Shown piece after piece: positions 1,265 to 49,750 of a stretch of 64,000 nt of DNA. Position 1 is the first letter of the stretch; every line of letters begins with the position of its first letter. The DNA is taken from positions 1,302,001-1,366,000 of the forward strand of contig NC_089436.1 of NCBI RefSeq assembly GCF_026210795.1, in the 5' to 3' direction. The notes below the pieces were generated by a model. That model made no database searches. It saw only the letters and a program-made list of their open reading frames with translations, and was not told where the DNA came from. Both the position numbers and the translations under genes were made by a program. The stretch is from Rhizophagus irregularis. Taxonomy: Eukaryota; Glomeromycota; Glomeromycetes; Glomerales; Glomeraceae.

Positions 1265-2598
1265 TTAAAGTTCCGAAATATTTAACAGTCGACTATAATA
1301 GATAGCTCTTTCATGACATGGTAAAGTGTTAAAATGCAATTGTTCTAAGCTTGAGAATTTAATTTCTTCGGCAACGTTAAATTGATTGGATAAATCCGAT
1401 GGATAAGGATCGTCGCATATTGTTGTGACCCAATTTCCTAAACATTCGCAAAGTTGAGATGCTGTCGGTCTATTGGATGGATCAGTATCTAAACATTGTA
1501 ACATTAATCTAGTGAAAACAGGTGGAGTTCCACTGACTATATTCGGTCTGGTTCCTGAACAAATCTCTTGTATAAGTTGTGAATCATGAGGTCTATCACA
1601 ATAAGGGCGTATACCAGCTGATAGCATCCACATGATCATGCCGAAACTGTATATGTCAGACTCTTTAGTTAATGTATATCCATTAAAGACTTCAGGAGCA
1701 ACAAAAGGTATTACGCCGTAAATTTGTATAGAAGATATTTGTTCATCAACAGGACCGTGTAATCCTGTGTCCGCAATTTTAGCATCTATTGAATCCATTT
1801 CGCTATCCTCAACCAGTATGTTCCCCCCGTGTAAATTTCCATGAGTAAGATCGCGTTCATGAATAAAATTAAGACCAGCTGATATGGCCCATAATAGATC
1901 TACAATATCTCTCCAGTAAAGGATTCTCGTGGATTCATCAAGATACGAATATAAATTCCCATTTTCATAATATCTCATGACGAACATGTAACACGATGTC
2001 GGATCTTTAGTCATGCCAAAATAATCTGCAAGTGATCTACTTTGCAGGCATTTATAATATCTATATAACTTTTGGTTAAACAAATTTTTAGCCAATTAAA
2101 TTTATAATTAAGTTTGACCAATAATAAAAATTTTCAGCCATTTGGCGTTTTTATTTACACACTTACTTGATTTACGAAATCTTGATTTATGTTCTGAGAA
2201 TTATCTAATCGTTTTAGGATGACTTTGACTGGACCATCACGAGTCCATACTTCAGCTTCTTCGTCCAGAATCCAGATTGGGCCTTCCATCCATATTGCGG
2301 AATAAATTGAGCTAAAAACACCTCGTTTATTAGTATTCTTAACTAAATTGAATTGATTAAAATCAATCCACTCAAGGTACGTATTATCGTTTGCATTTAA
2401 TTGAGTGTACTGAATGAATTCATCTATCATAGAGTTTCCGCTGGTCCAACTATTAAATTTTCCTTTCAAATTTGCAATATTGCAATTTTTACACCATGCA
2501 GCGGAAGTTCGTTGCCTTCTACAATCTGGACAATTTCCATATGGTGCACTATTTATAGTGAAATCCTGAGATTCGAGGGTCGGATCGAATAAATGCAT
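1265..2598 (-). CDS. Kinase A: two-exon kinase-like protein, predicted pseudokinase
   Basis: Exon 1 is 2598-2167 (ATG, 144 codons), the intron 2166-2069 (98 bp, CAA|GTAAGT ... AAAAG|TTATAT, phase 0) and exon 2 2068-1265, giving a predicted 411 aa. Residues 23-39 form CX2C-X9-CX2C, a zinc-ribbon-like pattern, followed by WTSGN (51-55) and DEFIQYTQL. The kinase-like domain runs from about 76 to 375. The glycine loop is degenerate (NKRGVF, 90-95). The VAIK-type Lys is present (K129). The alpha-C position aligns to Gln (Q144). The HRD motif reads HGN (220-222) before LHGGN, DFG reads DTG (244-246), and APE is kept (268-270). The N-terminal module is known from the expanded Glomeromycotina kinases. 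Loss of the catalytic Asp suggests a signalling scaffold or ATP-binding pseudoenzyme, which is inference. Near-identical to D. Confidence 0.88.
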
Positions 2599-2599
2599 G

Positions 2600-3940
2600 A
2601 CCTTCAGCTTTGTTTTTTTATTTTATTTTCTTTTTTTTTAAAAAAAATTGCTTTATACAATTATTTTTTTTTCTTTCGAAATATATATGTATATATATAA
2701 GAGAGGCTCTGAAAGCCGCGACATCTTGCTTCAATCATATAGCATTTATATCAGATTTATTAGTTGCTTTGCCAGAAAAAAAAAGGTTTAATCAATTTAA
2801 TTAGTTTATTTGAATACAATAAGTTCGTACTTCATATTGTTTTATCGCCGTTTATAGGACAAATAAATCTGGTGTGATATTAAAAAAGGTGTAACATTGC
2901 AACGATTATTTAATAAGATTTGCCTCTTGCATGACACACAAGTAGTAGTGCACGAAAATTTCTGAAACCAGTAATAGGGATAATCTTAATACATAATGTA
3001 TAAAATGCGAAATTACGTAATTACCTCTGAAAATATTTTACATTACGCATTACGTTATATTGAATGAACAACTGAAGGTTTTTTTAAACAATAACGCAAA
3101 TAATGATTAATAATTTCCAAAGATTTCCAAATTCGATTATTTCAGTTGTCAAAAATAAGATTTTCCGAAAATATGTGACTAAAATTATTCAGTTTTTGAT
3201 TAATTCTTGTACTTTGATGTTTATTTTATACTTTATAGTACTTACCCTTCTTTTAGTACGTTTTAACTAATATCTATGTTAAATCTATTTTTTTTCCATC
3301 TTATCTTGATGTCTAAAAGTTTCACATAAATTCGCATCACTGATTTATCGTTTATTTTTTTTTTGTTTGCACAACACAATTGAGTTAAAATTAATATTTC
3401 GAATTTTTGGGAATTTTAAGTGGCTGTTATTTGTGTTTTTATCAAAAAGGTGAAAAAATGAATTTAAAATAAAGTACGTCAAAATTATATTATTGAATTT
3501 TACTTAAGGATAATACTTCGGAGTTCGGAGCCTTAGTTGTTATCGGGAAAATAATGAATTGCGTAAACTCTAAAAATGTTAACATATTCCAGGTTTGCCG
3601 ACCGATACATATATAATGTATGTCGTATTTTTCTGTGTTCTATGAACAACCTTAATTTAAATTAGAAAAGGTTTTGGGGAATTCCAGATAAAGAATTTTA
3701 TTAAATACATAATAAACTTAACGTATCAAGCTAAAATTATTAATGTTGTACACATGAGTGGGATCCAATATATTATCTGCATAGCAAGAAAATGTGTTTT
3801 ATAGTATATGTTGCACGTAATTAGCCACAAGGCCTAGAATAGAGAATGAACGTAAAAAAAAATAAAATCTTATCCCGCTTCTACAGAAAAATTCGGTAAT
3901 ATTTTGGTAATTTCCAAATATTTGGTCCCAAGACTCCGAA
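2600..3940. other. Upstream flank of kinase A
   Basis: AT-rich 5' flank with no supportable gene. Poly-T/A tracts lie within about 80 bp of the start codon. From about 2770 onward the sequence is nearly identical to 36470-37960 upstream of D, so it is part of the segmental duplication. Weaker copies of the same block lie at 7790-8680 and 42230-43640, where no kinase follows. The apparent ORFs here are low-complexity or antisense shadows. Confidence 0.5.
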
Positions 3941-3949
3941 CAATAGGTA

Positions 3950-4930
3950 AAAAAAGATCAGCACGCATATTAATATTAGCTCTACGCATCTTTTCAGGGC
4001 AAAAATCACGTAATTCCGCCTGGAATTATCAAAAAATGAAGGATCTACACATATTTTGGTTCATTCTATAATGTTACGATATTGCTCGGGTACTGATATT
4101 AGTGATCTATATAATGATTGGACATAATGAACGTGCAGTGTATCCCGGATTATCCCGATTACGGAATCATCTGATTGCCGAAGTTTAGTAAACAATGATT
4201 TACAATAAAAATTGCCTCCACGTACAAATTTACAATAAATTTTTACCTCCGCGTACAGATTTACTCCCGAATTAGGGGTTTGACGTACATATAAATATAC
4301 TTTTTATCGTTTTTTTGTCAATTAATTTAATCATAAATATGAATCTCGGCAAATGAAGTAATTCAAATTCGTTCAAAAATGCTAACATAGTTAGAAATGA
4401 AGCATTGATGAAATCAAAAAAAAAAAATAGTCAAGAAATTTCAAATATTCAAAGTAATATAAAAAATTTTTATGAAGTTTCTGAAATATGATTATTAAAA
4501 AAAAGTTCAGTGTACAGATAAATATAAGGCCTGAAGTTTAACGTACGGATTTGTACGGAAATGACCTTTGTCCGCGGAAGTTCATTAATAAAACTGTGGC
4601 GTATTCAGGGGCCCTATTCCAACCCGTTTATCAGTGTGACTACTGTATATGGGTTATTGCTGTATTACTTTCTGTATTAAAAATTACCCTTTTGCATATA
4701 ATTCTAACAAAAGTCACAGACGAAAAATTCATTTATTTATATTTACTTTCAAAGAATCTTGTGCTGAAATATATCTTGTCTATATGAAACTGAGTTATGG
4801 CTCGATAAATTGATGATAACTCATATTATTAAATATACGAAAACGTAACGGATTATTTTCTTTAGATATTTTTGATTTAGTACTATCTCGATAAAGAATT
4901 CCAACAAGAAACGCTCATCGGCACAACAAA
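3950..4930 (+). repeat. Dispersed block R1 (copy 1)
   Basis: Non-coding repeat block. The part at about 4640-4930, ending in a TAGTACTATCTCGATA segment, also occurs at about 38160-38450 in the same orientation and at about 22050-22390 inverted. The part at 3950-4190 (GCACGCATAT, TTCAGGGC, CCGGATTATCCCGAT) resembles 22480-22640 inverted and, more weakly, 61980-62200. An ORF across 4551-4787 is not maintained in the other copies, so I do not call it a gene. Confidence 0.45.
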
Positions 4931-6099
4931 CCCTTAAAAAACCCATTTACAGTAATTTATCTTATTTATCATATGAAGTTATGAACTAACTAGAATAGTT
5001 ATAAAAGTACTTGGGACACCGTATGAGTTATTTATTTATAAAACTTAGTAGTTTATTGTACTAACATAATAATTATGTATTTAATCATGCTTTAAGCTGC
5101 TTACATTCTTTACATCACAATACTCTTCACATCGTTCTTTAATTTTGATTGTAAACTTGTTCTTCCGTCAAGTATCTATGCATGGTTATTTTCTCATCTA
5201 CATTACATATTTGATTATTGAAAATTTATGCATAATCCATCGATGTAGTACTCCAATAGTACAAAAAAATAACTCCGATAAAATACTATTTATAGAACAT
5301 TTAAACTTATAAGGTAAAGGCATTTCACATTCGATCAAATGCCATTTGAAGTTGTCATTTAGTCATTTTAAATAAATTCCTTATATGGATAATTCCACAA
5401 ATAAAAAAATAAAAAAAATTCTCTTTTTGTAAATTTAAAAATATAAAAATTGATTGTATTTTTCAGGCGTGAACATTTAGACAATCATCTCTAAGGTTTT
5501 TGTAAATAAAATGATTTGAATATATTATGATGCATCCGCCTAGAAAATAAAATATTAAGAAACTTTTCAAAATATTCTTCGGCTCAAAAAACCGAAAAAA
5601 AAACATTTCAACTCACAAAAATGAAAAAAAAACAATAAACTTTCCAAAGGAAAAAAAAATCAATTTAATATTTTCTTTATAAATTATAGCAATGTTACAC
5701 GTAAATGTATGAACAATGAAATTCTGAAACTTGGGATATAATTAAACTAGTTCGGTTTTGTTTGGGATCAACCTGTGATTATTTACAAAAAAAATTTTAT
5801 TATTAGATATTAGAACATTTGATAAAACAAAACAATCGGTAAGATAAAACATGCCTGCTACATCTAGTTCTAAAAAAAAAATTTGAAACAATTGGATAAA
5901 AAAAATAAAGCATTTCTTTTTCGTGCCTGTAACATAACAGTTGAAAGAAAATATATTTATAATTCCGTTCTCTCTTACCACATCTTGCTATCTCCTTCAA
6001 GCGTTCAACGCAATATTCATTTTTTTGCATCTTATAAAATGGGATGGAATATTTTGTGAAACTTTTATTGATATGTTATGATCATTTACCCCCTAGATA
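4931..6099. other. Gene-free AT-rich spacer between kinase A and X1
   Basis: Part of the A-X1 duplicated block. About 5095-5300 aligns with 39465-39700. The 5400-5670 stretch is A-homopolymer-rich. No maintained ORF, RNA gene or repeat with clear ends was seen. Confidence 0.4.
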
Positions 6100-6559
6100 A
6101 TGATTCATAGTATGTCATTGAATATCTTTATTTAAATTTGTATGGATAATTAGTAATATTTAAAACTTAATCTTAGTAAAAATATTAATAAAAAAAAAAG
6201 ATAAATAAGGATTTCTTGTTAAACTAATAAAATAATAAAATTTGTTAAAGCTTAATTGAATTTTGTGTTAAAATTTTAGAAATTCATAATTAGTTACATA
6301 ACAGCACTCTAAAAAATATTTACTAGTACATTACGATGAATTAAGTTTGTGATTCCTCAACGAAAAAAAACGAAGTTAGAAAAAAAAAACTCGGTTATAA
6401 TAATTAACGTTATAATTAGGTTAAAAGGATTGGAAAATTCTTTTCTTTTTAATCTATGCCAATTTTTTCTTACCATAATTTTACTTAAAAGCCAATTATA
6501 TATTGTGCTTATAATACGTAATACGAATTTATATGAAATTATTTTGTTGAAGCTTAAAA
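6100..6559 (-). other. 3' flanking module downstream of X1
   Basis: Conserved block just 3' of X1, near-identical to 40490-40947 (after X3) and similar to 23990-24340 (after X2) and 57060-57515 (after X4). Landmarks are TTTTGTGTTAAAA, CATAACA(A/G)CACTC, AAGTTTGTGATTCCTC and an AACGAAAAAA run. The same order of landmarks occurs downstream of the kinase genes, although X and K proteins are unrelated. Confidence 0.5.
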
Positions 6560-7246
6560 TTATTGAAATCTTCTTGTTGGCAGTCCATTTGTATCTTGGT
6601 GAGTAATATGTTCATTGCTTGAAAAATCACTATCATTATAATTTTGATTGTCTGCCATTGATGAAACGGTTTGTGTTATCATTTCATTATTCCCAACATC
6701 ATTTGTGTTTCTATCACAGATCATTCGATAGAAAAGTTTTTGTTTCAAGTTTTGTTCAAGATTGAATTTTTGATCTAAAGACAATGGTTTTGTATCAAAA
6801 TTCATTCCACAAACTTCATTATTCAAAATGTTTTCTACCAATGGGTATGAAAGTAATTTACAAGTAACATGATATCCTATAGAGGGATTACTTGGATGCT
6901 GGTAAAAAAATTCATGATCATAATGATTACTATGATCATTAAAAGAATCTTGTAAAATGATTTTACAAATTACAAGATAAAAATTGACATCACTTGGCAA
7001 AAAATAATAAAACTTTAAATAATTTAAACTCGGTAAAATCTGCTGATACTGCATAGTATGTGCTGCTACATCGAAAGTAGCAAAGTTATATGATGTATTT
7101 GACATGCCGGTCATATTTCTATGAGACGTTATTGAAGATTCTTGACTTTGCGTAGTTTGTTGAATTGCGGTAGAAAAATCAAATGATTCATCAGTTTCAA
7201 TGCCGGAATTATTATAAATAAACGATTGTTGTAAATTTTCATCCAT
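6560..7246 (-). CDS. X1: unrecognised Glomeromycotina-type family protein
   Basis: Single-exon ORF of 228 aa from an ATG at 7246. I do not recognise the family. A conserved core at about residues 76-181 is shared with X2, X3 and X4: YLKFYYF, then NFYLVICKIILQDSF, HEFFYQHP, YHVTCKLLSYPLVENILN, and a basic amphipathic FNLEQNLKQKLFYR segment. The flanks (1-70 and 182-228) are rich in N, Q, S, T and D, resembling the disordered tails of regulatory proteins. No signal peptide or membrane segment is evident. The last residues (LPTRRFQ) come from a one-base shift relative to X2 and X4, where a QQ-x-DFN-x-F motif is read instead. The N-terminus lacks the three residues MNN found in X3. Function unknown. 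Confidence 0.7.
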   Translation of the reverse strand: MDENLQQSFIYNNSGIETDESFDFSTAIQQTTQSQESSITSHRNMTGMSNTSYNFATFDVAAHTMQYQQILPSLNYLKFYYFLPSDVNFYLVICKIILQDSFNDHSNHYDHEFFYQHPSNPSIGYHVTCKLLSYPLVENILNNEVCGMNFDTKPLSLDQKFNLEQNLKQKLFYRMICDRNTNDVGNNEMITQTVSSMADNQNYNDSDFSSNEHITHQDTNGLPTRRFQ

Positions 7247-8685
7247 ACGAGAATAGTTACTTAAAATATAAATACAGTATTACTACTCGAAGATTTATCT
7301 ATTATGTAAAAATGAAATGGAGAATAAAGAAAAAAAAATATTTGTATATATTCTCTCAGGATACGATTTTTGGTTTTATCATTATATATATAAAAAAGAA
7401 AAAATTACAGATATCATATGAATAATTTGAAAAAAGAAAAATACACTAAGAAAAAAACAAGGAGACATATTTTCGGTGTAACGATCCGTGTCATTTGCCT
7501 AACCTTATCGATTTTAGTATAAGTTACTACTTATTCATGCTAAAGATTGATAATAATTTGAAAAAAATTTAACGAATTACAGTTTGCATTTTCAGATCAG
7601 AACAGTTATTGATCAAAAAAAAATGAAATATATTATCGGTTTTGTTTTCCTTTTTTTTTTATTCTGCTTTTCTATCATAAATTTTTGAAATAAACTTTTT
7701 ACAAAACCGAAATAAAATAAGGCGCGTTTTAATAAAGGAAACTATTCTGCTGATCTATTTGTGTTACTGCTGCGTTAACTTCTTGTATTATATATAAGTG
7801 CATGAGTTAATAATGTATAAATGCTAAATTACGTAATTACTTCTGAAAATATTTTACATTAACTATATTAATAAACTTTTAAAAGCCTTTCTTTTAATCG
7901 ATTTCCCAAATTTGATGATTAAAAATACGACTAAAATAATTTAGTTTATGATTAACTCTTGTTCTTTGATGTCTATTTAATTTATATTTACCCCTAGCCT
8001 AGCCTTTTTAGTAGCAATATCTAAAAATCTATTTTTTTTTTGTTCTTGATAATCATCGCCATCTTATCTTGGTATCTTAAAATTTCACAGAAATTCGCAT
8101 CACATTATATCATCACATTATATGAGCAGTGGAAAAAAAAAAAGAATATTTTATCTAAGATGTGTAAATTTATCGTAGCATAAAATTTAAAATTTATTAC
8201 ACGCATATAATAATAATATTATTATAGGATTTATTCTTCTTTATGATCTTACAGCTGTTATAGTTATATTACAAGCTATCATGAAAAGGCAATGCTTTAT
8301 TTATTTATTTATTTTGTTTATACAACGCAATTAAGTTCAAATTAATATTTCGATTTTTTTTTAGAAGATTACGTGGCTGTTTATTGTGTTTTTATCAAAA
8401 AAGATGAAAAATGAATATAAAATGAAGTACAGTAATCAGTGTATATGTCATAAGTCCGTATTTTTCTGTGTTCTGAACAACCTTAAATCACAAAGAAGGT
8501 TTTGGGAAATCCAGAAAAAGAATTTTATTAAATATATAATAAACTTAAATTTTACGGACGTAAAATTCTGAATTAAGCTAAAATGATTAATTTTGTAAAC
8601 AAATGAATCAAATCTATTAATTGCATGGTAATTAAAATTAAAGAAAAATTACAATTTCTAGTGTTTTATATACATTACGTTTTTG
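7247..8685. other. Ghost kinase locus upstream of X1
   Basis: No coding region. At 7440-7570 the sequence (ATTTTCGGTGTAACG, then CGATTTTAGTATAAG, then ATGCTAAAGAT) matches the distal part of the module found 3' of kinases B and D. From about 7650 it resembles the poly-T 5' leader of the kinases, and 7790-8680 aligns with the kinase upstream flank (compare 2990-3780). The kinase ORF expected between them is absent. The same arrangement is found at 41830-43640. Confidence 0.5.
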
Positions 8686-8687
8686 TA

Positions 8688-15050: not shown

Positions 15051-16411
15051 TTATATTTTTTCGTAAAGAAATGGTTCCGAAAAATTTAATGGTCGACTGT
15101 AATAGATGGCTCTCTCATGACACGGTAAAATGCTAAAATGTAACTGTTCTAAATTTGAGAATTTAATTTTTTCAGCAATGTCAAATTGATTAGATAAATC
15201 CGACGGATCAGGATCGTCGCATATTGCTGTGACCCAATTTCCTAAACGTTCGTAAAGTTGAGATGCTGTTGGTCTATTGAACGGATCAGCATCTAAACAT
15301 TGTAACATTAATCTAGCGAAAACAGGTGGAGTTCCACTGACTATACTCGGTCTGGTTCCTGAGCAAATCTCTTGTATAAGTTGTGAATCATGAGGTCTAT
15401 TACAATAAGGGCGTACACCAGCTGATAACATCCACATGATCATGCCGAAGCTATATATGTCAGACTCTTTGGTTAATGTGTATCCATTAAAGATTTCGGG
15501 AGCAATGAAAGGTATTACGCCGTAAATTTGTTTAGAAGATATTTGTTTATCAACAGGACCGTGTAATCCTGTGTCTGTAATTTTAGTATCTATCGAATAC
15601 ATTTCATTCTCAACCAGTACGTTCCCTCCATGTAAATGCCCGTGGATGAGACCACGTTCATGAATAAAATTAAGACCAGCTGATATAGCCCATAAAATAT
15701 CTACAATATCTCTCCAGCAAAGGATTCCCATGGATTCGTCAAGATACGAATATAAATTTCCTTTTTCATAATATCTCATAACGAACATGTAACACGATGT
15801 CAGATCTTTAGTAATACCGAAATAATCTGCAAGTGAACCGCTTTGCAAACACTTACAATATCTGTATAACTTTTTTGATTAAAAAAATATTTAGCCCAAT
15901 AAAACTAATAAACTTTAATTTAAATTTTCAGCCATTTGGCGTTTTTTATTTACATACTTACTTGATTTACGAAATCTTGATTTATGTTCTGGGAATTATC
16001 CAATCGTTTTAATATGACCTTAATTGGACCATTACTAGTCCATACTTTAGCTTCTTCGTCCAAATTCCAAGTAGGTCCTTCCATCCATATTGCAGAATAA
16101 ATCGAACTAAAAGCGCCTCGTTTATTAGTATTCTCAATCAGATCGAATTGATCAAATTCAATCCATTCAAGGTAGTCTGTGCTGTCGTTTGCTTTTAATT
16201 GAGTATATTGGATGAATTCATCTATCATAGAGTTTCCACTGGTCCAACTATGAAATTTTTCTTTCAAATTTGCAATATCACAATTTTTGCACCAAGAAGC
16301 AGAAGTTCGCTGCCTTTTACAATCCGAACAACTTCCGTATGATAGAGCTTTATTATTTGCACTATTTATAGCAGAATCCCGAGACCCAGAGGTCGAGTCA
16401 AACAAACGCAC
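15051..16411 (-). pseudogene. Kinase B: kinase-like gene lacking its ATG
   Basis: Exon 1 frame is 16411-15962, the intron 15961-15870 (92 bp, CAA|GTAAGT ... AAAAAAG|TTATAC) and exon 2 15869-15051. Both exons are open, and joined they would encode about 422 aa with CX2C-X9-CX2C, WTSGN, a K in VILK, HGH at the HRD site, LHGGN, DTG and APE. The codon aligned with the ATG of A and D is GTG (16411-16409). The frame upstream reaches a TAA without any ATG. A downstream in-frame ATG at the SMIDEF segment would skip the cysteine module. So this is either a recent pseudogene, a gene with an N-terminally shortened product, or a gene with a non-AUG start. Confidence 0.65.
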
Positions 16412-16419
16412 GACCTCCA

Positions 16420-17060
16420 GCTTTGTTTTTTTCTTTTATTTTCTTTTTTCGGTAAAAATTGCTCTTACAGATATTTTTTTTTTCTTCGAAAAAAAAAAAT
16501 ATAAAAGAAGGCTCTAAAAGCCCAACATCCTCAATCGTATAGAATTTATACGTAAAACAAATAATCAAAAATCATTCCTTGGACTAACAATGAGTATCTA
16601 TTCTCTATTGTTCAAGCCGGATTAAGTAAAATTCGGATCAAACAAAAATTTTAATGGTTGGACACATTATTAACAAGATTTACCTTTTACATGTACGTAT
16701 GTGCCGAAATTTCTGTGAACGGGATTATCTTAGTACATAATGTAGACATGCGGAATTACGTAATTACCTCTGAAAATATTTTACATTAAACTACATTAAC
16801 TACATTAACTTTGAAAAAACTATCTTTAGGAATAATGCCCGTGAAACCATGTGGAATAATAGATTTTTTTTAACATCAAGAATGCCACGAACTGCACGAA
16901 GTAATCGCATTTTTATCGCATTTTTACATGTGAATATTGAATGAACAAGGTTGTTTTTTAAACAATACGCAAATAATATTTATTTTTAATGTACGATAAT
17001 ATTAAAGTAGTTAAATGAAGAATTAAATTTATATGAATTATTTCAAATTTAGTAATGATA
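16420..17060. other. Upstream flank of kinase B
   Basis: Homologous to the A and D upstream flanks (TCTTAGTACATAATGTA, TACGTAATTACCTCTG, TTTACATGTGAATATTGAATG). About 16985-17100 instead matches 52588-52700 in reverse complement. No gene. Confidence 0.45.
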
Positions 17061-19500: not shown

Positions 19501-19504
19501 ATCT

Positions 19505-24337: not shown

Positions 24338-25135
24338 TTAATGAGTGGTTTCGAAATTATTTTGCTGAAGTGCAAAAGTATTGAAATCGTCTTGTTGTGA
24401 ATGAATGACATTATCTTTCAACCCAATTGTATCTTGGTGAGTATGATCTTTGCTTGAACAATTACTATCATTGTAATCTTACATGTCTGCTACTGAAACG
24501 AGTTGTGTTATCATTTCATGATCCACAACGCCATTATAAAATGAATTTGTATTTCTATTACAATGCATTCGATGGAAGAGTTTTAGTTTCAAGCTTTGTT
24601 CAAGATTGAACTTTTGATTTAATGATAATAATTCGACATCAAAATTCATTCCACAAATTTCATCATTTAAAATATTTTCTACTAAACAGTTTGGAAGTGA
24701 TTTGCAAGTAACATGATATCTTGTGGAAGGATAGTTTGGATGTTTATAAAAGAACTCGTGACTGTAACGATCATGATTGTTAAAAGAAGAATCTTCTTGT
24801 AAAATAATTTTACAAGTTACGAGATAAAAAATATTAACATAGAAATGATAAAATTTTAAATAACTCATAACTGGCAAAGTCTGTTGATATTGCATAGTAA
24901 CTTGATTTGTTGCATTATAAGTATTACATGATGAATCAGAAATATTCATCACATTTCCTAACGAAGATACTTGATGTTGCGTAATTGGTTGAGCTGCGGC
25001 AATATCGATAGAAAAATCAAGTGATTCGTTAGTTGTCATATTGAAAGAGTTGTAAGAATGGGTTGAGGTAGGTTGAGAATAATTCATGGTAAATAGTTGT
25101 CTATCATAACATAAATTATTATCCATATTATCCAT
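24338..25135 (-). pseudogene. X2: X-family gene with an in-frame stop near the C-terminus
   Basis: Start chosen at ATG 25135 (MDNMDNNLCYD), because the longer frame opens on TTG. It reads 218 aa to TAA at 24481-24479. The core (about residues 91-195) has YLKFYHF, NIFYLVTCKIILQ, HEFFYKHP, TRYHVTCKSLPNCLVENILN and FNLEQSLKLKLFHR. The stop replaces the CAA (Gln) codon of X1/X3. Beyond it the same frame stays open for 46 codons (DYNDSNCSSKDHTHQDTIG ... QQDDFNTF ... ETTH) to 24338, matching the family C-terminus. So X2 either makes a shortened protein or is a young pseudogene. The core also lacks two residues after YHF relative to X1 (FLPSDVN against FYVN). Confidence 0.65.
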
Positions 25136-25159
25136 ATTGTACTTAGATGGAAGCAATTT

Positions 25160-28868: not shown

Positions 28869-30224
28869 ATGTCTTCTCGACAAAATGAAAATGGGGAAGA
28901 TTATATGGATTTTATTAAGAATGAGTCAAAAACAAAGTCGAATATTGACTTTGGAAAATGTTTAGATTGTGGGAAGGAACGAAGTAGCGTTGGATGGTGT
29001 AAAGATTGTGAAATTAATGCTCTAAAAAATAATTTTAAAAACTGGACGAGTGGAAATATTAATATGGATAATTTTATTAAACACACACAGTTGCACGCGA
29101 ATGAAAGTGTGGATTACTTGGAATATGTTAATTTCGACCAATTTGATCTCATGGAAGACACAAATAAAGGAGGCGCATTTAGCACAATTTTTTCAGCAGT
29201 TTGGATGGAAGGTCCTAGATGGGTATGGGATGAAGAAGCTGAAAAATGGACACGTAATGGACCTGTAAAAGTTGCTCTTAAGAGACTTAACAATTCACAA
29301 AATATTAGTGAAGAATATTTTAAACAAGTAATATATAGTTTTAAAGTGTTTTATTTATCATTGAATATTTGAATTTTATGAGTTTATTTTAATTTACATA
29401 ATTTTTTATAGCTTTATGAATCTCATCGAAGCTTACAAAGCGGAAATACTGCAGATTGTTATGGAATTACAAAAGATCTTACTTCAAACTACATGTTCGT
29501 AATGAGATATTATGAGAATGGAGATTTGCATTCATATCTTGATAAAGCACAAGGAATGCTGTGTTGGAGAGATATTGTAGATATGCTTTGGGGGATATCG
29601 GGTGGGATTGAAAATATTCACGAAAATGGATTAATTCATGGGTATCTTCATGGAGGTAATTTATTGGTTGAAAATGAACTAGGCTCAGTCAATATATGTA
29701 TCGCGGATGTAGGATTACATGGTCCAATTGACAAAAAAGGTACCAATAAAATATATGGAGTTCTTCCTTATGTTGCTCCTGAAGTCTTGAAGGGAAATCT
29801 ACCAACGATGGCTTCGGATATTTATAGTTTTGGAATTATTATGTGGACTCTTTCCGCGGGTACTCGTCCATGGTGCGATAGACCGCATGATCTCAGATTA
29901 GCTAATGAAATTTGCTTTGGTCTTCGCCCTGAAATTATTGATGGAACTCCAAAAGTTTATATTCAATTAATGACACAATGTTGGCATCCTGATCCTACAA
30001 AACGTCCTACTGCATCTAAATTGTCTGAATTATTAGGAAGCTGGACAATTGCTATTTGTGATGACCCAGAACCATCTGAATTATCTGACCAATTTAATAT
30101 TGCTGAAGAGAAAAAATTCTCAGATTCAGAGCAAAATAAATTTCAACAACAAAAAATCCATCCCCAAGCTTTTTATACGAGCAGACTCTTGTATTTTCCT
30201 GAATTAATTAACATTTCGTCATAA
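28869..30224 (+). CDS. Kinase C: divergent intact kinase-like gene
   Basis: Exon 1 is 28869-29327 (153 codons), the intron 29328-29411 (84 bp, CAA|GTAATA ... TATAG|CTTTAT, phase 0) and exon 2 29412-30224, giving 423 aa. Cysteine module C31/C34/C44/C47; WTSGN; NFIKHTQL; glycine-loop region NKGGAFSTIF; Lys in VALKRL; Gln at the alpha-C position; HGY at 229-231 in place of HRD; LHGGN; DVG in place of DFG; APE kept. This is the most divergent member and its flanks lack the shared 3' module, so it may be the founder or an older locus. An ATG at 28859 opens a nine-codon out-of-frame uORF that overlaps the start. Predicted pseudokinase by the missing catalytic Asp. Confidence 0.88.
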
Positions 30225-35031: not shown

Positions 35032-36362
35032 TTAAAGTTCCGAAATATTTAACAGTCGACTATAATAGATAGCTCTTTCATGACATGGTAAAGTGTTAAA
35101 GTGCAATTGTTCTAAGCTTGAGAATTTAATTTCTTCGGCAACGTTAAATTGATTGGATAAATCCGATGGATCAGGATCGTCGCATATTGTTGTGACCCAA
35201 TTTCCTAAACATTCGCAAAGTTGAGATGCTGTCGGTCTATTGGATGGATCAGCATCTAAACATTGTAACATTAATTTGGTGAAAACAGGTGGAGTTCCAC
35301 TAACTATATTCGGTCTGGTTCCTGAACAAATCTCTTGTATAAGTTGTGAATCATGAGGTCTATCACAATAAGGGCGTACACCAGCTGATAACATCCACAT
35401 GATCATGCCGAAGCTGTATATGTCAGACTCTTTAGTTAATGTGTATCCATTAAAGATTTCAGGAGCAACAAAAGGTATTACGCCGTAAATTTGTTTAGAT
35501 ATTTGTTTATCAACCCGACCGTGTAATCCTGTGTCTGCAATTTTAGCATCTATTGAATCCATTTCGCTATCCTCAACCAGTATGTTCCCTCCGTGTAAAT
35601 TTCCATGAGTAAGATCGCGTTCATGAATAAAATTAAGACCAGCTGATATGGTCCATAATAGATCTATAATATCTCTCCAGCAAAGGACTCTTGTGGATTC
35701 ATCAAGATACGAATATAAATTCCCATTTTCATAATATCTCATGACGAACATGTAACACGATGTCGGATCTTTAGTCATGCCAAAATAATCTGCAAGTGAT
35801 CTACTTTGCAGGCATTTATAATATCTATATAACTTTTGGTTAAACAAATTCTTAGCCAATTAAATTTATAATTAAGTTTGACCAATAATGAAAATTTTCA
35901 GCCATTTGGCGTTTTTATTTACACACTTACTTGATTTACGAACTCTTGATTTATGTTCTGAGAATTATCTAATCGTTTTAGGATGACTTTGACTGGACCG
36001 TTACGAGTCCATACTTCAGCTTCTTCGTCCAGAATCCAGCTTGGGCCTTCCATCCATATTGCGGAATAAATTGAGCTAAAAACACCTCGTTTATTAGTAT
36101 TCTTAACTAAATTGAATTGATTAAAATCAATCCACTCAAGGTACGTATTATCGTTTGTATTTAATTGAGTGTACTGGATGAATTCATCTATCATAGAGTT
36201 TCCGCTGGTCCAACTATTAAATTTTCCTTTCAAATTTGCAATATCGCAATTTTTGCACCATGCAGCGGAAGTTCGTTGCCTTTTACATTCTGGACAATTT
36301 CCATATGGTGCACTATTTATAGTGAAATCCTGAGACTCGAGGGTCGGATCGAACAAACGCAT
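35032..36362 (-). CDS. Kinase D: two-exon kinase-like protein, predicted pseudokinase
   Basis: Exon 1 is 36362-35931 (ATG, 144 codons), the intron 35930-35833 (98 bp, same splice sites as A) and exon 2 35832-35032, giving 410 aa. Motifs match A: C23/C26/C36/C39, WTSGN, K129, Q144, HGN in place of HRD, LHGGN, DTG, APE. It differs from A at scattered positions (for example R2 for H2, GPSW for GPIW, GLHGRV for GLHGPV, and one residue fewer after KQIS). The pair come from a recent segmental duplication, and both copies are open throughout, which is compatible with retained function. Confidence 0.88.
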
Positions 36363-40947: not shown

Positions 40948-41631
40948 TTATTGAAATCTTCTTGTTGCCAGCCCATTTGTATCTTGGTGAGTAATATGTT
41001 CATTGCTTGAAAAATCACTATCATTATAATTTTGATTGTCTGCTGCCATTGATGAAACGGTTTGTGTTATCATTTCATTATTCCCGACGTCATTTGTGTT
41101 TCTATCACAGATCATTCGATAGAAAAGTTTTTGTTTCAAGTTATGTTCAAGATTGAATTTTTGATCTAAAGACAATGATTTTGTATCAAAATTCATTCCA
41201 CACACTTCATTATTCAAAATGTTTTCCACCAATGGGTATGAAAGTAATTTACAAGTAACATGATATCTTATAGAGGGATAACTTGGATGCTGGTAAAAAA
41301 ATTCATGATCATAATGATTATGATCATTAAAAGAATCTTGTAAAATGATTTTACAAATTACAAGATAAAAATTGACATCATTTGGCAAAAAATAATAAAA
41401 CTTTAAATAATTTAATACTCGTTGTTGCATAGTATGCGTTGCTATGTCGAAAGTAGCAAAGTTACATGATGTATTAGACATATCAGTCATATTTCCATGG
41501 GACGTCATTAAAGATTCTTGACTTTGCGTAGTTTGTTGAATTGCAGTAGAAAAATCAAATGATTCACCGGTTTCAATGCCGTTATTATTATAAATAAACG
41601 ATTGTTGTAAATTTTCATCCATATTATTCAT
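40948..41631 (-). CDS. X3: unrecognised family protein, duplicate of X1
   Basis: Single-exon ORF of 227 aa from ATG at 41631 (MNNMDENLQQSFIYNN). Core as in X1: LNYLKFYYFLPNDVNFY, LVICKIILQDSF, HEFFYQHP, RYHVTCKLLSYPLVENILNN, FNLEHNLKQKLFYR. The tails are polar. It differs from X1 by small gaps (QQRV for QYQQILPS, one Ser missing in NDHNHYD, one added Ala near MAADN) that keep frame, and by substitutions. In-frame indels in a recently duplicated gene suggest a translated product. The last residues LATRRFQ reflect the same one-base shift as in X1. Function unknown. Confidence 0.7.
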   Translation of the reverse strand: MNNMDENLQQSFIYNNNGIETGESFDFSTAIQQTTQSQESLMTSHGNMTDMSNTSCNFATFDIATHTMQQRVLNYLKFYYFLPNDVNFYLVICKIILQDSFNDHNHYDHEFFYQHPSYPSIRYHVTCKLLSYPLVENILNNEVCGMNFDTKSLSLDQKFNLEHNLKQKLFYRMICDRNTNDVGNNEMITQTVSSMAADNQNYNDSDFSSNEHITHQDTNGLATRRFQ

Positions 41632-41639
41632 ATTATATT

Positions 41640-43680
41640 TATGTGAAACAGCGAATCAGTTACTCTTAAATTATAAATACAGAATTACTACTCGAAGAGT
41701 AGTAATCTATTATGTAAAAATTAAATGGAGAATAAAGAAAAAAAATATCACTATTAGTTCTCCGGGATACGATTTTTTTTGGTGTTTATATATACAATAA
41801 TTTGAAAAAAAATATTTATGAAAAAAAAGGTGACATATTTTCGGTGTAACGAACCGGTGTTAACGGATTATTTACTTACCCGTAATTTTATTATCGATTT
41901 TAGTATAAGTTACTATTTATTCATGCTAAAGATTAATAATAATTTGACGAAAAAAGAATATTATCGCTTTTGTTTTCCCTTTTTTTAGTCTGCTTTTCTA
42001 AGATCTCCCGCTGAAGATAGCGGACTTTTGACATAGAAATGTCTGTCATAGAATACAATAAGTCCTACTATAATTATTGGATGGGTAAAAATATCGAAAT
42101 CCCATCCTATTGAATATTGATTAGGCTATTACACTGGTCGAAGTGAAGAAATGTGCCATACATTACATTTACACGAAAGAAATTTTATACATATGTCACA
42201 ATTCATATTGATTTACAAGTAATTTCAATTAAATCCAATTAAAATGTACATTACTTGTTGTAAATTTCCATTCATATTGTTTTATCGCGCCTGTTTAAAT
42301 GAAATTTTGATAATCATAGGACCAAATAAAAATCTCAAAAAGATGTAATAAAAAAAAAATCTTAAAATGTGTAACGTTGCAAATTTTTACCTCTTACATG
42401 ACATATTCTGAAACCGATAACATTAACTACATGCATATTAATAATATTTACGTTAGACTATACATTTTTGCATTATTAATTACATATTAACTAATTAACT
42501 TTGAACCATGTGAAATTACACATTTTTTTAATATCAAAATGTCCACGAGGTAACTGAAATCGCATGTGAATATTGAATGAACAAGGTTTTTTAAACGATA
42601 CTCAAATAATTTTTAATCGATTTCCAAAAATTTCCAAATTTGACTATTTCAATTGTCAAAAATGACTAAAATTATTTAGTTTATAATTAATAATTGTTCT
42701 TTGATGTTTATTTAATACTTTACCCTTTTTTAGTAGCAAAATATTTAAATTCGGAACGTTTTAATTAATATCCAAGATCTATTTTTTTTTCTTGATAATA
42801 ATCATTGCCATCTAATCTTGATCATATCTTAAAGTTTCGTTTCATATCATAAATATTATTGCAGCACAAAGTTTAAAATTTATTACACACGTTTCGTAAA
42901 TAGCAAAATGCAATATTATATTATTATCCGATGGAAAAGAGTGAATAACATTATTTTTACTTATGGAGGGTAAATGATTGGCTGAAAATAAGCCACGAAG
43001 TGGCTTATTCAGCCAATCATTTTCCTGTAATAAGTAAAAATAATGTAATCATTTTCTATCGGATAAATTTTATATCCGAGAGGCCTCAATGATCATGTAT
43101 AAATAGTTTATTAATAGTCTAACAAAGTATAATCTTATCACTAGCTTATAGAATTGATAATGTATATAAATATAATTTTATTGCGTGTATAAATAATAAT
43201 GAAATAAATTTCATATTTGATATTGCATATAAAATACTATCGGATAACTATAAAATTTTGCTTTACATGATCCTATGGAATATCGGATATAATATTATAA
43301 GCTTTTTTATGATTTTTCAACTGTCACATTACAAGTTTTCTTTGTTTACTTTTTTTCTTTTGTTGATCAAAAAGGGTGAAAAGAATGAATTTGAAATAAG
43401 TGCATCAAAATTATATTATTGAATTTTTCACTTCGGCATCAAGATAAATAATTAATTACGTAAGCCTATACATATAATATACATGTGATGGCTAGACGTG
43501 AAATTCTGAATCAAGCTAAAATTAGATCCAATCTATTATCTGCATAGCAAGAAAATGTGTTTCATATTATATGTTGCACGTAATTTGATTTTGCGGCCAC
43601 AAGGCTTAGAATAGAGAATGAACGTAAAATAAAATAAAATAAATAAATTTCGTTATCCCACTTAAACTTTCTACGGAAAT
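41640..43680. other. Ghost kinase locus upstream of X3
   Basis: 41830-41945 matches the distal part of the kinase 3' module (TTCGGTGTAACGAACCGG, CGATTTTAGTATAAG, ATGCTAAAG). 41960-42010 resembles the kinase 5' leader, and 42230-43640 aligns with kinase upstream flank (ATTGTTTTATCGC, TAACGTTGCAA, CTCTTACATGACA). No kinase coding sequence lies between. A 365-bp foldback element has inserted at 42925. Confidence 0.5.
42925..43289. mobile_element. 365-bp foldback element (TATCCGAT ends)
   Basis: The ends TATCCGAT and ATCGGATA are inverted. The left 143 bp (42925-43067) is itself a near-perfect hairpin: AATGATTGGCTGAAAATAAG and the reverse-complementary TTATTCAGCCAATCATTTTC flank a CCAC GAA GTGG loop, with ATTATTTTTACTTAT arms outside. 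The homologous site at about 8215-8225 in the A-X1 copy lacks the element. No ORF. Confidence 0.65.
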
Positions 43681-43684
43681 AATT

Positions 43685-44575: not shown

Positions 44576-44579
44576 TACG

Positions 44580-44765: not shown

Positions 44766-44784
44766 ATAAATAATTATAGTCATA

Positions 44785-44825
44785 CCCTAGGGCCGGTGGC
44801 CGGCCCTTACTAGTAAGAGTATGAT
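44785..44825. repeat. GC-rich palindrome
   Basis: GGGCCGG TGG CCGGCCC hairpin inside TACCCTAGGGCC / CTTACTAGTAAG palindromes. Isolated GC-rich patch next to the transposase relic; may be a transposon end. Confidence 0.5.
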
Positions 44826-45017
44826 ATATATTTTTCATCTAAAATAATTTAATTTATCTTGTAATTGGTCTTAAAAGAAAAATTCTTTTTGAATTTATAA
44901 AAAACAACATTTAACAATTTTTTTAAAAAAAAATTTTCGTTTCTAACCAAAATAAAATTCAATAAAATTTATTTCACATGATTAATATTGTAAGGATATT
45001 TCAAATCAAATTTGGTG

Positions 45018-45352
45018 TCCACTAATAAATCAATTCGTGTAATATATAATATTTTTTTTTAATAAATCAATTCATGTAATATATATTTTAATAAATAAAT
45101 TCATATATTTTTATTTTTAATAATTAAATTCATATAATGTTTTTTAATAATTAAGTTTGTATAATGTTTTTTAATTATAATTTTTTTAATATATAATGCT
45201 TTTTTGTTTATAAATAAATAAATTCATATAATGCTTTTTTTAAAAAAATTCATATAATATTTTAATAAAATTTGGATATATATATATATATTTTTAATAA
45301 AATTTGGATATATATATTTTTTTTAATAAAATTCGGATATATATAGATTAAT
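45018..45352 (+). repeat. Degenerate tandem array, unit about 28-37 bp
   Basis: The first part repeats TTTTAATAA-x-TAAATTCATATAAT about seven times. The second part repeats TTTTTAATAAAATTTGGATA followed by a TA run three times (45265-45350). One further unit-like piece (AAATTTGGATATATATA) sits at 45820-45850. Non-coding. Confidence 0.65.
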
Positions 45353-45354
45353 TC

Positions 45355-45775
45355 ATAGAGTTGCTGCTGTTTGTCTATTAGATAGGTCATCATCTACATT
45401 AATCTTGCGAAAACTGGACCTTAGTCAAATTCATAAAAATTTCCGAATCATGACAAATTGATATCCTAAAGTTATTGTTCTTATTTTTAAGATTGTATTT
45501 CGATCAAATGATGATTCCAAAAATCTTACGATCAGATTGGAGCTTTGCCTATGAGTATTACTAGAAATAATCTACTTGTGATACATATTCAATATAATTT
45601 TTTTTGAATAAATAATATATGGCAGATTCAGGAACAACAAAAGATATTATGCCGAAATTTGTTGAGGTGATACAACAGGTCCAGTAAGTTTCCTCTATGT
45701 AAACGTTCGTAAACGAGAATAGCTGATATTGCCCGAATGAATATCTATAGTCAAAGTACGAACATAAACTAGTGA
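45355..45775 (-). pseudogene. Kinase-family exon-2 relic
   Basis: Minus strand: 45355-45420 corresponds to PPVFARLMLQCLDADPSNRP, with the middle lost. 45615-45765 corresponds to LDE ... SISAGLNFIHER ... LHGGN ... GPVDKQIS ... IPFVAPE, in pieces with stops and shifts (AGGAACAACAAAAGATATTA and GGTCCAGTAAG are recognisable). Not functional. Confidence 0.55.
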
Positions 45776-45859
45776 TTTACCTACCATTTGTATTCCTGAA
45801 TTCACAATATTTTTTTTTAAATTTGGATATATATATATATATATATTTTTGATTTGGGT

Positions 45860-47555
45860 TCATTTAAGAACGTTTAAATTATTTCAACTGCTTTTATATA
45901 TTTAACTTCCTTCAATTCCTATTATAATTACTAGTAATCACAAAAATTAGCCTCCTGAACAATGTATACGAATAATAAATATTTCCTTGATATTAATATG
46001 GATAGCTTTGACCTTTTGATCAACCAATTCGTAGATCATGATCAAACCATTGTTCTTTTTTTTTTATTGAGCTAATTAAGAAACTTTATTGATAACAGTT
46101 AATGGAATACAAACAATTAATTAACTAGATTGTATATGCGCGTTCAGTATAAATACCTACTGCAAAAATGCTTAGTTAAAAAAGCTAGCCTATAGAAGTT
46201 AATAAACCTAGAAGACCGCCTGCTCAATTTCTACGGAGGTTAGTAATATAGAGGGAAAAACTCACCCAAAGGGCGAAACAAGGAAGAAGACTATAACTAA
46301 AAAGGAATGAGAGAAAAAAAATTTTAATAAAATACTGTATTCTAAAAATTGGAAAATAATTAAATATAAATCATCTAAAAAAGAAAATTATATCTAAAAT
46401 TCCTATACTAATTCACGTTAAAAACTAAATTACATAATTTCACATCATAATTATTTGATACACTAAAAAGTCTATAAACAAGGTCATAATCCCACCCAAC
46501 CAGTATAAGCCCTTCGGTTATTAAACTTTCCATAGGTCAAGCGTAGACGTCCCCAAGTCTTAATACTTTTAACCATTGAATAGTTGCGAAATATCAAAAA
46601 AGTAAAAAAAAAAAAGGCAGTTCGGCCAACATTTATTGATTTTTTCAATCCGCAATCAATCTGCATACAAGTTCTTGCTTTCGATTTCCAATTTCAGTTG
46701 ATCACGTGATGACGTTATGTAAAATAATCTTCCCCAGTATCACCGACATTTTTTCCACCCCCACGTGATTTTGTAATATTCATCACCGGCAGCACACCCA
46801 CCGCGTTTTCACTGTTTATATTTATCTGAGGGACAATTTTTTTTTTGCCTCACAAAATTATTTTTTTCACATCCTTTAAATGTCACCGGTCACGTGGGGT
46901 GGAATTTTAATAATAAAATTGTTGGTGTTAATCCGTGTTATAACGGGACATGTAAAATATCCAATTTTCAAGAACGAAAGCAACGAAGAAAAAAGGTGAA
47001 GGTGAGAGATACGGTATATTCAAAATATTAAAAAAAAATTTCTAATATCGCTATAAAATAGCAAAAACAAATAGATAACCAAATATCTATTCATAACAAA
47101 GGTTTTCTTTCCATAAAACTCATTAAAAGGCCTTTTAGGTTTTCGAAGAAATTTTTCAACAAATAATAGTATGAAGGCAGAGTAACTCCATTTATCTTCG
47201 GGCACTAGTGACTGCCTACACCTTGGGTGACGAGTCCAAGGAGTAGTAAGTGTTTCCTTTCTGTATTTCAAATTAATAAACAGTCAAGAGCTGAAAGATG
47301 TTTAACAGGTACTGCGCCATACTAAGGGTAACGAGGGCAAGAGGAAAGAGTTTTTTGATCAAACCATTGTTCGTAATATGCTCCTCATACTTAGCGCATA
47401 AGAGCTAACCAATTTCTCCTTCCTTTCCGGGATAGCCAATTAGTATAACAACCAATCACAAGAAATATCACTATTAAAATGAAGATCACCTGATATCGTT
47501 AACTATATAGTGCGATCTGTATATAGTGTCAAATAAATCATAAGAAACATTATTT
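45860..47555. other. Gene-free region, locally less AT-rich
   Basis: No confident gene. A minus-strand frame at 47020-47271 reads TPWTRHPRCRQSLVPEDKWS then YSAFILLFVEKF, which has protein-like composition but no family I can name; it may be a transposon relic. 46160-46300 and 46680-46960 are less AT-rich than the surroundings. The inverted repeat at 46748-46910 lies here. Confidence 0.35.
46748..46910. repeat. Inverted repeat, TTCCACCCCCACGTGA ends
   Basis: TTTTTTCCACCCCCACGTGA at 46749-46768 and TCACGTGGGGTGGAATTTT at 46889-46907 are inverted copies with one extra C. About 120 bp lies between, with CACCGG motifs near both ends. Probably a MITE; no ORF. Confidence 0.55.
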
Positions 47556-47559
47556 CCCA

Positions 47560-47955
47560 CTTCTTTTTTACATTTATCATACTGTATATAACCCGACACA
47601 ATTTTCGTTTCCTATTTTTTAAAACGATAGTTTGACGCGAATATTATTTAATATTTGTTTGAAATTTTATTTACATATTGATTTTTTTTTAGAAACAAAT
47701 TGGCAACTATTCTTTATCATGTGCAACAAATTATTTATTATTTTGCATTACTTCACCCTTTTTTTAAAAACCTGTATATTTGCTTGTTGATCGGATGATT
47801 TTTCCGGCTCCCCCCCTAAATAAATTAAAGGGATTTGTTTTTACCCTATTATAAGCAAATTACGTAATGTGATCGCCAAGAAATGGTTTTTTTTATAAGA
47901 ACCCATTGATTTTTTAAAAAAAACACTGATTTTTAAATCATAGTGTTTTTTTTAA
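47560..47955 (+). promoter_or_regulatory. Kinase E upstream region
   Basis: Directly precedes the kinase E ATG and is conserved, inverted, at 17285-17640 before the E-type fragment. Contains CATACTGTATATAACCCGAC (TATATAA at about 47584), GATTACTTCACCC-type and CGGCTCCCCCCC segments. Conservation over about 350 bp reflects shared ancestry. No specific factor site can be named. Confidence 0.45.
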
Positions 47956-49750
47956 ATGGATTATAATCCCGAATCTTCGTTTCGTTCACTGAGCCCTTCT
48001 AGGTCTCAAGATGAATCTCATTCTTATGGTAATTGTTCAGAATGTAAACAAAAACGAACTGCAGTAGCATGGTGTAAAAATTGCGATATAGCGATTTTGA
48101 AAGAAAATTTTTGTAACTGGACCAGCGGAAATTCTATAATTGATAAATTTATAAGGGATACTCAATTAAGTGCTAATGAAAATATAGACCACCTCGAATG
48201 GATTGAATTTGATCAATTTGATTTAGTTGAGAATATTAATAAGCGAGGTGCCTTTAGTTCAATTTATTCGGCAGTTTAGATGGAAGGTCCAAGATGGAAT
48301 TTAGATGAAGAAGCCGAAGTATGGAATCGTAATGGCCCAATTAAGGTTATATTGAAACGTTTGGATAATTCTCAAAATATGAGTCAAGAATTTATAAATC
48401 AAGTAAGTACATAAAATAAAAGTATCTTATTAACGAATTTTGAGATTGTTCTGCTATCAATCTCAAATTGATTATATATTCAAATGTCTAGAAATAAATT
48501 ATAAATTATGCATTAATTGCCCCATAAAATTCTACCTGGATGGGATATTAATTTTATCCTTTGAAGCTTATCATTATTGTTTAATAAACTATGATAAGCT
48601 CATGAATTAAATTGATATCCCACCATTGGTGAATGAACTTAATAAAATTAGATGATTAAGTCCTTTCATAGAATGTATAAATTATTAATGCATAATTGGT
48701 ATAGCCAGAATAACAAACACTGGATATAAACATTACTCCGGATCTTCAGTAGATCAAATATAAACAATTATGCGAGTAATGCGACGTTAAAACCTAGATG
48801 CATTTAATTAATCTATTTATATTACAAACAATAGAATATATATTAATATTATGTTTTTTTTTGTTTTTTTTCTCTGCTTTTTTTTAAAAAAAAATTTATA
48901 ATTTACTCAAAAAAAGTTATGCAAATACCACAAATGTTTACAAAATGGAGCACTTGCGGATTGTTTTGGTATAACAAAAGATCCAACTTCGTGTTATATG
49001 TTCGTTATAAGATATTACAAAAATGGAAATTTATATTCGTATCTCGATGAAACTATGGGAATTCTCCGCTGGAGAGATATTGTAGATATGTTGTGGTCAA
49101 TCTCTGAGGGACTTCATGTTATTCATGAGTATAATCTCGTTCATGGGCATTTACATGGAGGAAATGTATTAGTTGAAAACGAAATGGACTCAATTGATAC
49201 TAAAATCACGGATACTGGATTACACGGGCCTTTTGATAAACAAATACCACTACAACACGTGTATGGCGTGATACCTTTTGTTGCGCCAGAGGTCTTTAAT
49301 GGAAATACACTAACTAAAGAATCTGATATCTATAGCTTTGGCATGATCATGTGGATGTTATCAGCTGGCGTACGTCCTTATCACGATAAATCTCATGATT
49401 CACAACTTATACAAGAAATCTACTCAGGATTAAGACCAAATGTTATTAGTGGAACTCCACCCGTTTTCGCTAGATTAATGTTACAATGTTTAGATGCTGA
49501 TCCATCGAATAGACCAACAGCATCTCAACTTTGTGAGTATTTAGGAAATTGGACAGCAATCTGTGACGATACTGATCCATCAGATTTATCTAATCAATTT
49601 GATCTTGCAGAAGAAATTAAATTCGCAGATTTAGATAAGTTAAAGTTTAATATTGCACCATGTCATGAAAATGCTATTTATTTTAGTCGCCCATTAGATT
49701 CTACTATTAATAGTGAATCTTCTACGCAATTTTTCAGTGGAAAAATGTAA
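47956..49750 (+). pseudogene. Kinase E: kinase-like gene with TAG in exon 1
   Basis: Exon 1 is 47956-48402 (149 codons, CAA|GTAAGT donor), the intron 48403-48916 (514 bp) and exon 2 48917-49750 (AAAAAAAG|TTATGC acceptor). Apart from codon 108 (TAG, 48277-48279), where the other members have the Trp of SA(I/V)WMEGP, both exons are open and would give 426 codons. Motifs: CSECKQKRTAVAWCKNC, WTSGN, NKRGAF, VILKRL, HGH for HRD, LHGGN, DTG, APE. The C-terminus is extended by about ten residues (STINSESSTQFFSGKM end). The long intron carries a foldback insertion. Most simply a young pseudogene. Read-through at the TAG or an assembly error at one base are alternatives. Confidence 0.72.
48503..48700. 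mobile_element. About 200-bp foldback MITE inside the kinase E intron
   Basis: The outer ends AATTATGCATTAATTG and ATTAATGCATAATTGG are inverted. The middle arms are GGATGGGATATTAATTT and AATTGATATCCCACC. The centre is AAGCTTATCATTATTGTTTA against TAAACTATGATAAGCT. The homologous intron start in the pseudogene at 22.98 kb continues without it, and the other family introns are 84-98 bp. Confidence 0.65.

Follow-up and report, generated by a model that had tools for sequence, protein, structure and literature searches.

An arrayed clade of putative nucleotide-binding pseudokinases without the HRD aspartate in Rhizophagus irregularis

Kinase-like genes in the window

We analysed a 64,000-nucleotide stretch of contig 8 of Rhizophagus irregularis (the window, C8:1302001-1366000) and searched the genome to which it belongs (146,748,485 bases in 32 contigs) for relatives of its genes. 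The window carries five kinase-fold genes, here called A to E, in which the catalytic aspartate of the HRD motif is replaced by asparagine, histidine or tyrosine, and these belong to a clade of about 60 genes, most of which are arrayed on contigs 8, 15 and 17. We consider the clade to consist, on balance, of nucleotide-binding pseudokinases of the HER3/JAK-JH2 type, which probably lost the aspartate once, before the arrays spread, and have been held under purifying selection.

Each of the five genes has at least two coding exons, the first encoding a cysteine module, the glycine loop, strand beta3 and helix alpha-C, the second encoding the remainder and ending in a stop codon after a single kinase domain. 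The introns are GT..AG, and the donor site directly abuts the codon of the glutamine that closes alpha-C (CAA, then GT). At the intron after this glutamine, L006, L008, L010 and L015 have a GC donor (CAG, then GCAAGT), the other members listed having mostly GT.

Gene A lies on the minus strand: exon 1 (2167..2598) contains the cysteine module, the glycine loop, VILK and alpha-C with its terminal glutamine, and is followed by an intron at 2069-2166 and by exon 2 (1265..2068), which runs from the end of alpha-C through the C-terminal tail and carries HGN (1820-1843), DTG and APE. Gene D, on the same strand, has the cysteine module, glycine loop, VILK and alpha-C glutamine in exon 1 (35931..36362), an intron at 35833-35930, and HGN (35584-35607), DTG and APE in exon 2 (35032..35832). 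Gene C is on the plus strand, with the cysteine module, KGGAFSTIF, VALK and FKQ in exon 1 (28869..29327), an intron at 29328-29411, and HGY (29637-29660), DVG and APE in exon 2 (29412..30224). Two genes required correction of the initial annotation. In gene B (minus strand), exon 2 (15051..15869) carries HGH (15621-15644), DTG and APE, and beyond the intron at 15870-15961 exon 1 (15962..16435) has an upper limit given by its open frame, which holds no ATG ahead of the cysteine module, so the start is uncertain. In gene E (plus strand), exon 2 is open (48917..49750, with HGH at 49142-49165, DTG and APE) and follows an intron at 48403-48916, while the matched part of exon 1 (48016..48402) contains an in-frame TAG (48277-48279) at the position of a tryptophan in A to D; gene E is therefore probably a pseudogene, barring a sequencing error at this codon. 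Exon 2 alone matched the Pfam family PF07714 in the three genes searched (A 118.5, C 115.2 and E 114.7 bits, curated cut-off 23.1), and a Pfam scan of exon 1 of A and C gave no match.

A catalytic site without its aspartate

Motifs were read from the translations and from a reference-anchored alignment, and the initial annotation was right that A to E have HG(N/H/Y) for HRD whilst keeping LHGGN, the DFG-site aspartate, APE and the VAIK lysine. The HRD position reads HGN in A and D, HGH in B and E and HGY in C, each within H-G-x-L-H-G-G-N, the DFG site reads DTG in A, B, D and E and DVG in C, and APE is present in all five. The VAIK site is VILK or VALK, and alpha-C ends in VNQ, INQ or FKQ, with the expected glutamate replaced by the glutamine that had been noted in A to E. 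In the glycine loop (KRGVFSS, KRGAFSS or KGGAFST) the second glycine is retained and glycines 1 and 3 are gone. The missing first glycine, noted initially, holds for A to E but is no distinguishing family trait, this glycine being absent from 25/25 readable other kinases examined as well. The cysteine module had been said to occur also on active-looking kinases, and we find it on the aspartate-bearing L066, L069, L074, L088, L091 and L092.

The register of the motif is correct, because phmmer aligns that of gene C onto the HRD of Eph kinases, and the motif is not due to chance, since there are 58 genomic occurrences of HG[NHY]xHxGN and none in the reversed control. A pseudokinase is defined by sequence as lacking at least one of the VAIK lysine, the HRD aspartate and the DFG aspartate. 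The HRD aspartate is missing in 5/5 window genes and in all 57 clade rows of the tree described below, with nucleotide-binding residues retained, in keeping with the pseudokinase signature proposed at the outset, as far as sequence can tell.

A substitute catalytic residue was also sought in the upstream 'ERD', which the initial annotation had named as a possible counter-argument. The column three residues before the histidine of HxN holds aspartate in 13 of the 57 rows (glycine 34, asparagine 7, arginine 2, serine 1), and this candidate was rejected; at the five positions following the HRD-Asp site, none of the 57 rows has an aspartate. The catalytic loop is thus left without another conserved aspartate, and the alpha-C glutamate is gone too, both of which count against the alternative that these are unorthodox active enzymes, where N, H or Y at this site, or a residue elsewhere, would support slow phosphotransfer or other nucleotide chemistry. 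Asparagine, histidine and tyrosine are also chemically unlike, so a common catalytic role is unlikely.

Occurrence of the motif across the genome

The following counts are of sites, not of verified genes. H-x-D-x-H-x-G-N occurs at 1775 sites (1 in the reversed control), N, H or Y replaces the aspartate of this pattern at 188 (control 22), and with any residue there the total is 2095 (control 81). In the HGGN form the corresponding numbers are 5 sites with aspartate (control 0), 73 with N, H or Y (control 0) and 83 with any residue (control 1). HGGN is associated with the Asp-less clade, because replaced sites outnumber aspartate by 73 to 5 in this form against 188 to 1775 for HxGN overall, but it is not exclusive to the clade. 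One HGGN locus, L113, matches as an outside kinase only, and no match was obtained for L111 or L112. A strict rule of N, H or Y was rejected, as one HGK site with HGGN was found (L097), though only 52 of its residues match.

Two other patterns were noticed in the genome. HYN is a second recurrent Asp-less motif, mostly HYNFH[D/N]GN, found 15 times among the first ca. 100 listed of the 188 N/H/Y sites (for example at C13:209865-209888 and C10:4744738-4744761), and it may derive from HCDFHDGN kinases. A near-identical 24-mer reading HGNFHLAN recurs often among the first places of a separate listing (for example C1:3340569-3340592), and may represent either a mobile repeat or a further Asp-less family.

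A clade marked by a probable single loss of the aspartate

Clade members were collected by a protein-level search using exon 2 of gene C, in which 142 of 3676 first-look candidates were scored, and by a pattern search; in the protein search the boundary between the clade and other kinases was set by score and was our choice. The searches gave 64 loci, the five in the window and 59 elsewhere in the genome, 57 of which were used as rows in the tree. After removal of the alpha-C column and the catalytic triplet from the alignment, the 57 Asp-less rows split from 34 other kinases with support of 99/95, which agrees with the earlier suggestion that a subfamily had switched and then expanded. By motif the 57 rows comprise 23 HGH, 16 HGN, 7 HRN, 6 HKN, 4 HGY and 1 LKN, and none has aspartate; the residue in its place is N in 30, H in 23 and Y in 4. 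One part of the clade has 36 rows and unites the contig 8 array with its relatives, the site being H, N or Y; the other has 21 rows from contigs 15 and 17, including one from contig 18, all with N. Asparagine was likely the first replacement. When the monophyly of HG(N/H/Y) was examined, as had been proposed, the Asp-less clade held together, but HG(N/H/Y) is no marker of it because sister members read HRN or HKN; the shared mark is the Asp-less state.

A single old loss of the aspartate, after which the site moved between N, H and Y (11 changes by parsimony), fits these data better than losses gene by gene; five separate losses, the alternative considered, were rejected. In a second round, 17 further HGGN sites were taken, of which 9 were analysable, and the enlarged tree placed 61 clade rows against 39 others, 24 of these with aspartate (a quick method, supported only by a Shimodaira-Hasegawa-like approximate likelihood ratio test value of 96). 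The 39 outside rows include three of the five HGGN sites that have aspartate; in the remaining two the match contains stops. L101 and L102 (contig 14, 3.41 and 3.44 Mb) read HRDFHGGN, with aspartate, in partial matches containing 3 and 1 stops, which may be either real breaks or the result of reading across introns.

Loss of the aspartate is not unique to the clade, as other kinases outside have lost it too. The 91-row tree requires at least seven changes between aspartate and its absence, a count that goes with a weak backbone and with several outside rows chosen for their missing aspartate. The row nearest to the clade, L076 on contig 8, also lacks the aspartate and has a long branch. L082 and L083 (contig 28, 1.11 and 1.54 Mb) form a well-supported separate pair (100/100) with HGN and DTG, probably an independent loss of the same appearance.

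Constraint and selection

We estimated the ratio of non-synonymous to synonymous substitution rates (dN/dS) from 53 stop-free exon-2 rows, keeping pairs with dS of 0.02-0.6. Such a comparison had been suggested for A, C and D, and for pairs of window genes in exon 2 it gave 0.31 for A-D, 0.21 for A-B and 0.14 for A-E. Across 102 exon-2 pairs the median was 0.24 (maximum 0.51), and across 66 exon-1 pairs 0.25 (maximum 0.96). Pooled ratios of non-synonymous to synonymous differences per site (pN/pS), with no row reused within a set, were 0.30 for exon 2 (22 pairs) and 0.29 for exon 1 (17 pairs), and since pN/pS is ca. 0.3 the clade is under purifying selection. The 20-codon windows peaked at 0.51 (exon 2) and 0.75 (exon 1), whilst the lowest exon-2 windows correspond by sequence to the hinge and to strands beta4 and beta5, next to the nucleotide pocket. 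Arms-race diversification was rejected, as no 20-codon window had pN/pS above 1 in this crude test, which is blind to single sites.

Six kinase-defining positions (Asn171, Asp184, the DFG glycine, the APE glutamate, Asp220 and Arg280) are retained in 57/57 rows, Lys72 in 51 of 52 readable rows (the exception, L046, has arginine), and the alpha-C glutamine in 49/49 readable rows. The second residue of the DFG site is T in 30 rows, V in 25, I in 1 and L in 1. With 11 changes the former aspartate column has changed more often than 236 of 320 columns, but N, H and Y are its only residues; just 6 of the 70 columns with 9-13 changes, counting this one, are limited to three residues or fewer. By this weak test the site seems to be confined. 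In a bare single-step codon count, 11 changes would all remain within N, H and Y with a probability of no more than 7e-5, a figure that ignores protein-wide selection and on which we do not rely, and by a simple codon count the lack of any return to aspartate in 11 changes is not unlikely (upper bound 0.23-0.44). A frequently changing site so confined, beside fixed metal and ATP residues, is what unorthodox active enzymes might be expected to show; the confinement could equally be structural, and with no alternative catalytic residue in sight we judge such enzymes improbable.

Comparison with known pseudokinases and expanded kinase families

In passages of PMC4718504, HER3 and the JH2 domain of JAKs are described as having lost Glu91, the alpha-C glutamate, and exchanged Asp166, the HRD aspartate, for asparagine, whilst keeping Lys72, Asn171 and Asp184 and binding ATP around one metal, with the Lys72-Glu91 bond of JH2 swapped for one between Lys72 and Asp184; HER3 acts on its partners as an allosteric activator, and JH2 controls the domain next to it. 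With this one-cation mode the clade shares the kept Lys72 (51/52 readable rows), Asn171 and Asp184 (57/57 each) and the loss of Glu91 (Gln in 49/49 readable rows), whilst asparagine stands for Asp166 in part of it, 30 of 57 rows, A and D among them, against histidine in 23 and tyrosine in 4. It differs from HER3, a receptor, in reading mostly HGx, and kinship with it is limited to the kinase fold. HER3 itself reads HRN at the HRD position.

HGN together with DPG is tabulated for several proteins in PMC2754085. A profile of the family, compared with solved structures, placed first the entry 7t6f (listed as a tyrosine-protein kinase), both kinase-like domains of which match, with 47.2 and 66.1 bits; in the first, HGN aligns on HGN and DPG stands at the DFG site. 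We take 7t6f to be full-length JAK1, and the tabulated HGN/DPG proteins are presumably JAKs. The window genes depart from JH2 in having DTG or DVG where JH2 has DPG, and JH2 lies beside an active JH1 in one protein whereas the window genes encode one kinase domain each. The similarity would reflect convergence or general TK/TKL kinship, and descent is not implied.

The coccidian ROPKs offer a second parallel, as a lineage-specific expansion in which the residue at the HRD aspartate varies (ROP5 HG[R/K/H], ROP36 HGH; passages of PMC3682881). Several ROPK subfamilies have basic residues (R/K/H) there, whereas the clade has N, H or Y, with histidine in 23/57 rows (HGH in B and E); ROPKs are moreover secreted, some with an N-terminal extension of their own, and the fungal genes lack any 20-codon window of pN/pS above 1. 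Closer at hand are the expanded TKL kinases of R. irregularis, a species described in parts of PMC8647823 and PMC10234402 as having high-copy kinases and expanded families occasionally in tandem arrays. The clade shares PF07714 and the cysteine module with these kinases, but aspartate is kept at most of their HxGN sites (1775 of 2095 with any residue) and lost throughout the clade. A broad pseudokinase survey by Kwon et al. (2019) reportedly mentions expansions in fungi in its abstract. The TKL group is stated to contain most pseudokinases, predominantly in plants and fungi (a passage of PMC10211241). We found no description of this clade, its arrays or its N/H/Y site in the titles and abstract openings returned by literature searches or in passages of PMC10234402, PMC8778642, PMC2754085, PMC4718504, PMC3937382, PMC8647823, PMC10211241 and PMC3682881. 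The abundance of fungal TKL pseudokinases being already known, it is the size of the clade, its arrays and its N/H/Y site that are noteworthy.

An interleaved gene family

Between the kinase genes lie open-reading frames (ORFs) of a separate expanded family, at 6560-7279, 24479-25159, 40948-41655 and 57516-58130, all on the minus strand. They share the core YLKFYYF..HEFFYxHP..YHVTCK, with 76 matches in the genome, more on contig 19 than on any other contig; one member had no solved-structure match up to E 1, and the four in the window had no Pfam match above the cut-off. The idea of a co-duplicated partner gene was rejected, though no linkage test was made, and the interleaving looks local because contig 8 matches occupy 1.265-1.375 Mb only, against 0.95-1.35 Mb for the kinase array, and contig 19 is the richest in matches. 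Against a local arrangement, weaker matches begin at C17:1440803, ca. 7 kb from the L016 piece, and further matches lie on contigs 15 and 26, which also carry clade members.

Proposed role of the clade

Several findings weigh against reading the clade as nucleotide-binding pseudokinases. Disruption or fragmentation affects at least 10 of 64 loci and, with the exon-1 stop of gene E, indicates that some copies are decaying; five later pieces (L105, L107-L110) are apparently partial or split. Exon 1 is constrained less evenly, with dN/dS of 0.75 and 0.96 in two closely related pairs. These features are those expected were the arrays decaying duplicates, non-functional kinase copies in which loss of the aspartate is a sign of decay, but dN/dS is ca. 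0.2-0.3 across the clade, 36 of 64 loci give a complete two-exon reading within the pieces examined, and six kinase-defining positions are invariant in 57/57 rows, which leaves decay of the whole clade very improbable. The third glycine of the loop is serine in 41 of 50 readable rows, which could block ATP binding. Together with the lost alpha-C glutamate, this degraded loop would suit a nucleotide-free scaffold acting through partner binding, its pocket merely structural, and the pseudokinases ROP2 and ROP8 are indicated to be unable to bind ATP (in a passage of PMC3682881); the near-invariance of Lys72, Asn171 and Asp184 would be unexpected without nucleotide and metal, and we think such a scaffold unlikely. 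HER3 and JAK2 JH2 are weakly active despite their asparagine (passages of PMC4718504), so some catalysis is possible, as unorthodox active enzymes would require, and because of this slight activity we regard catalysis in the clade as only likely to be absent. The top rank of 7t6f is a sum over two domains, the best single-domain matches being to Eph receptor kinases at ca. 115 bits. Finally, a partner role has analogy and shared modules as its basis.

With these points taken into account, it is very likely that the clade is non-catalytic or nearly so, and its proteins probably bind nucleotide. A TKL/TK-like subfamily would have lost the HRD aspartate once, then spread into three arrays and been retained as a protein with no catalytic activity or, at the most, very weak activity. 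Through the retained Lys72, Asn171 and Asp184 it may bind ATP with one metal ion, with alpha-C turned out and Lys72 bonded to Asp184 instead of Glu91, the arrangement described for HER3 and JAK JH2. The cysteine module and the tail, common to Asp-bearing kinases, may allow entry into the same complexes, where the nucleotide state could govern switching or scaffolding of an active paralogue. The tail motif A-x-Y-x-S-[RKHM] was present in 54 of 58 family pieces and in 25 of the other 43, six of these being clade fragments; the text match behind these counts was loose, ran over six frames and had no control. A structure model of exon 2 (5 rows) had a mean predicted local distance difference test score of 35 and was set aside unused. 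By analogy, a role as allosteric or scaffold partner of active kinases is possible but tentative. More speculatively, and with little likelihood, the N/H/Y residue might tune nucleotide occupancy or an unorthodox reaction, the ca. 60 copies acting as a graded bank of nucleotide sensors, each setting an active paralogue differently.

High-copy kinases are a notable feature of such genomes. A coherent and conserved clade not expected to work by the usual kinase chemistry suggests a regulatory, not a catalytic, purpose for part of this expansion. In its arrays N, H and Y occur as natural variants of a single site, material with which to test what a pseudokinase requires there.

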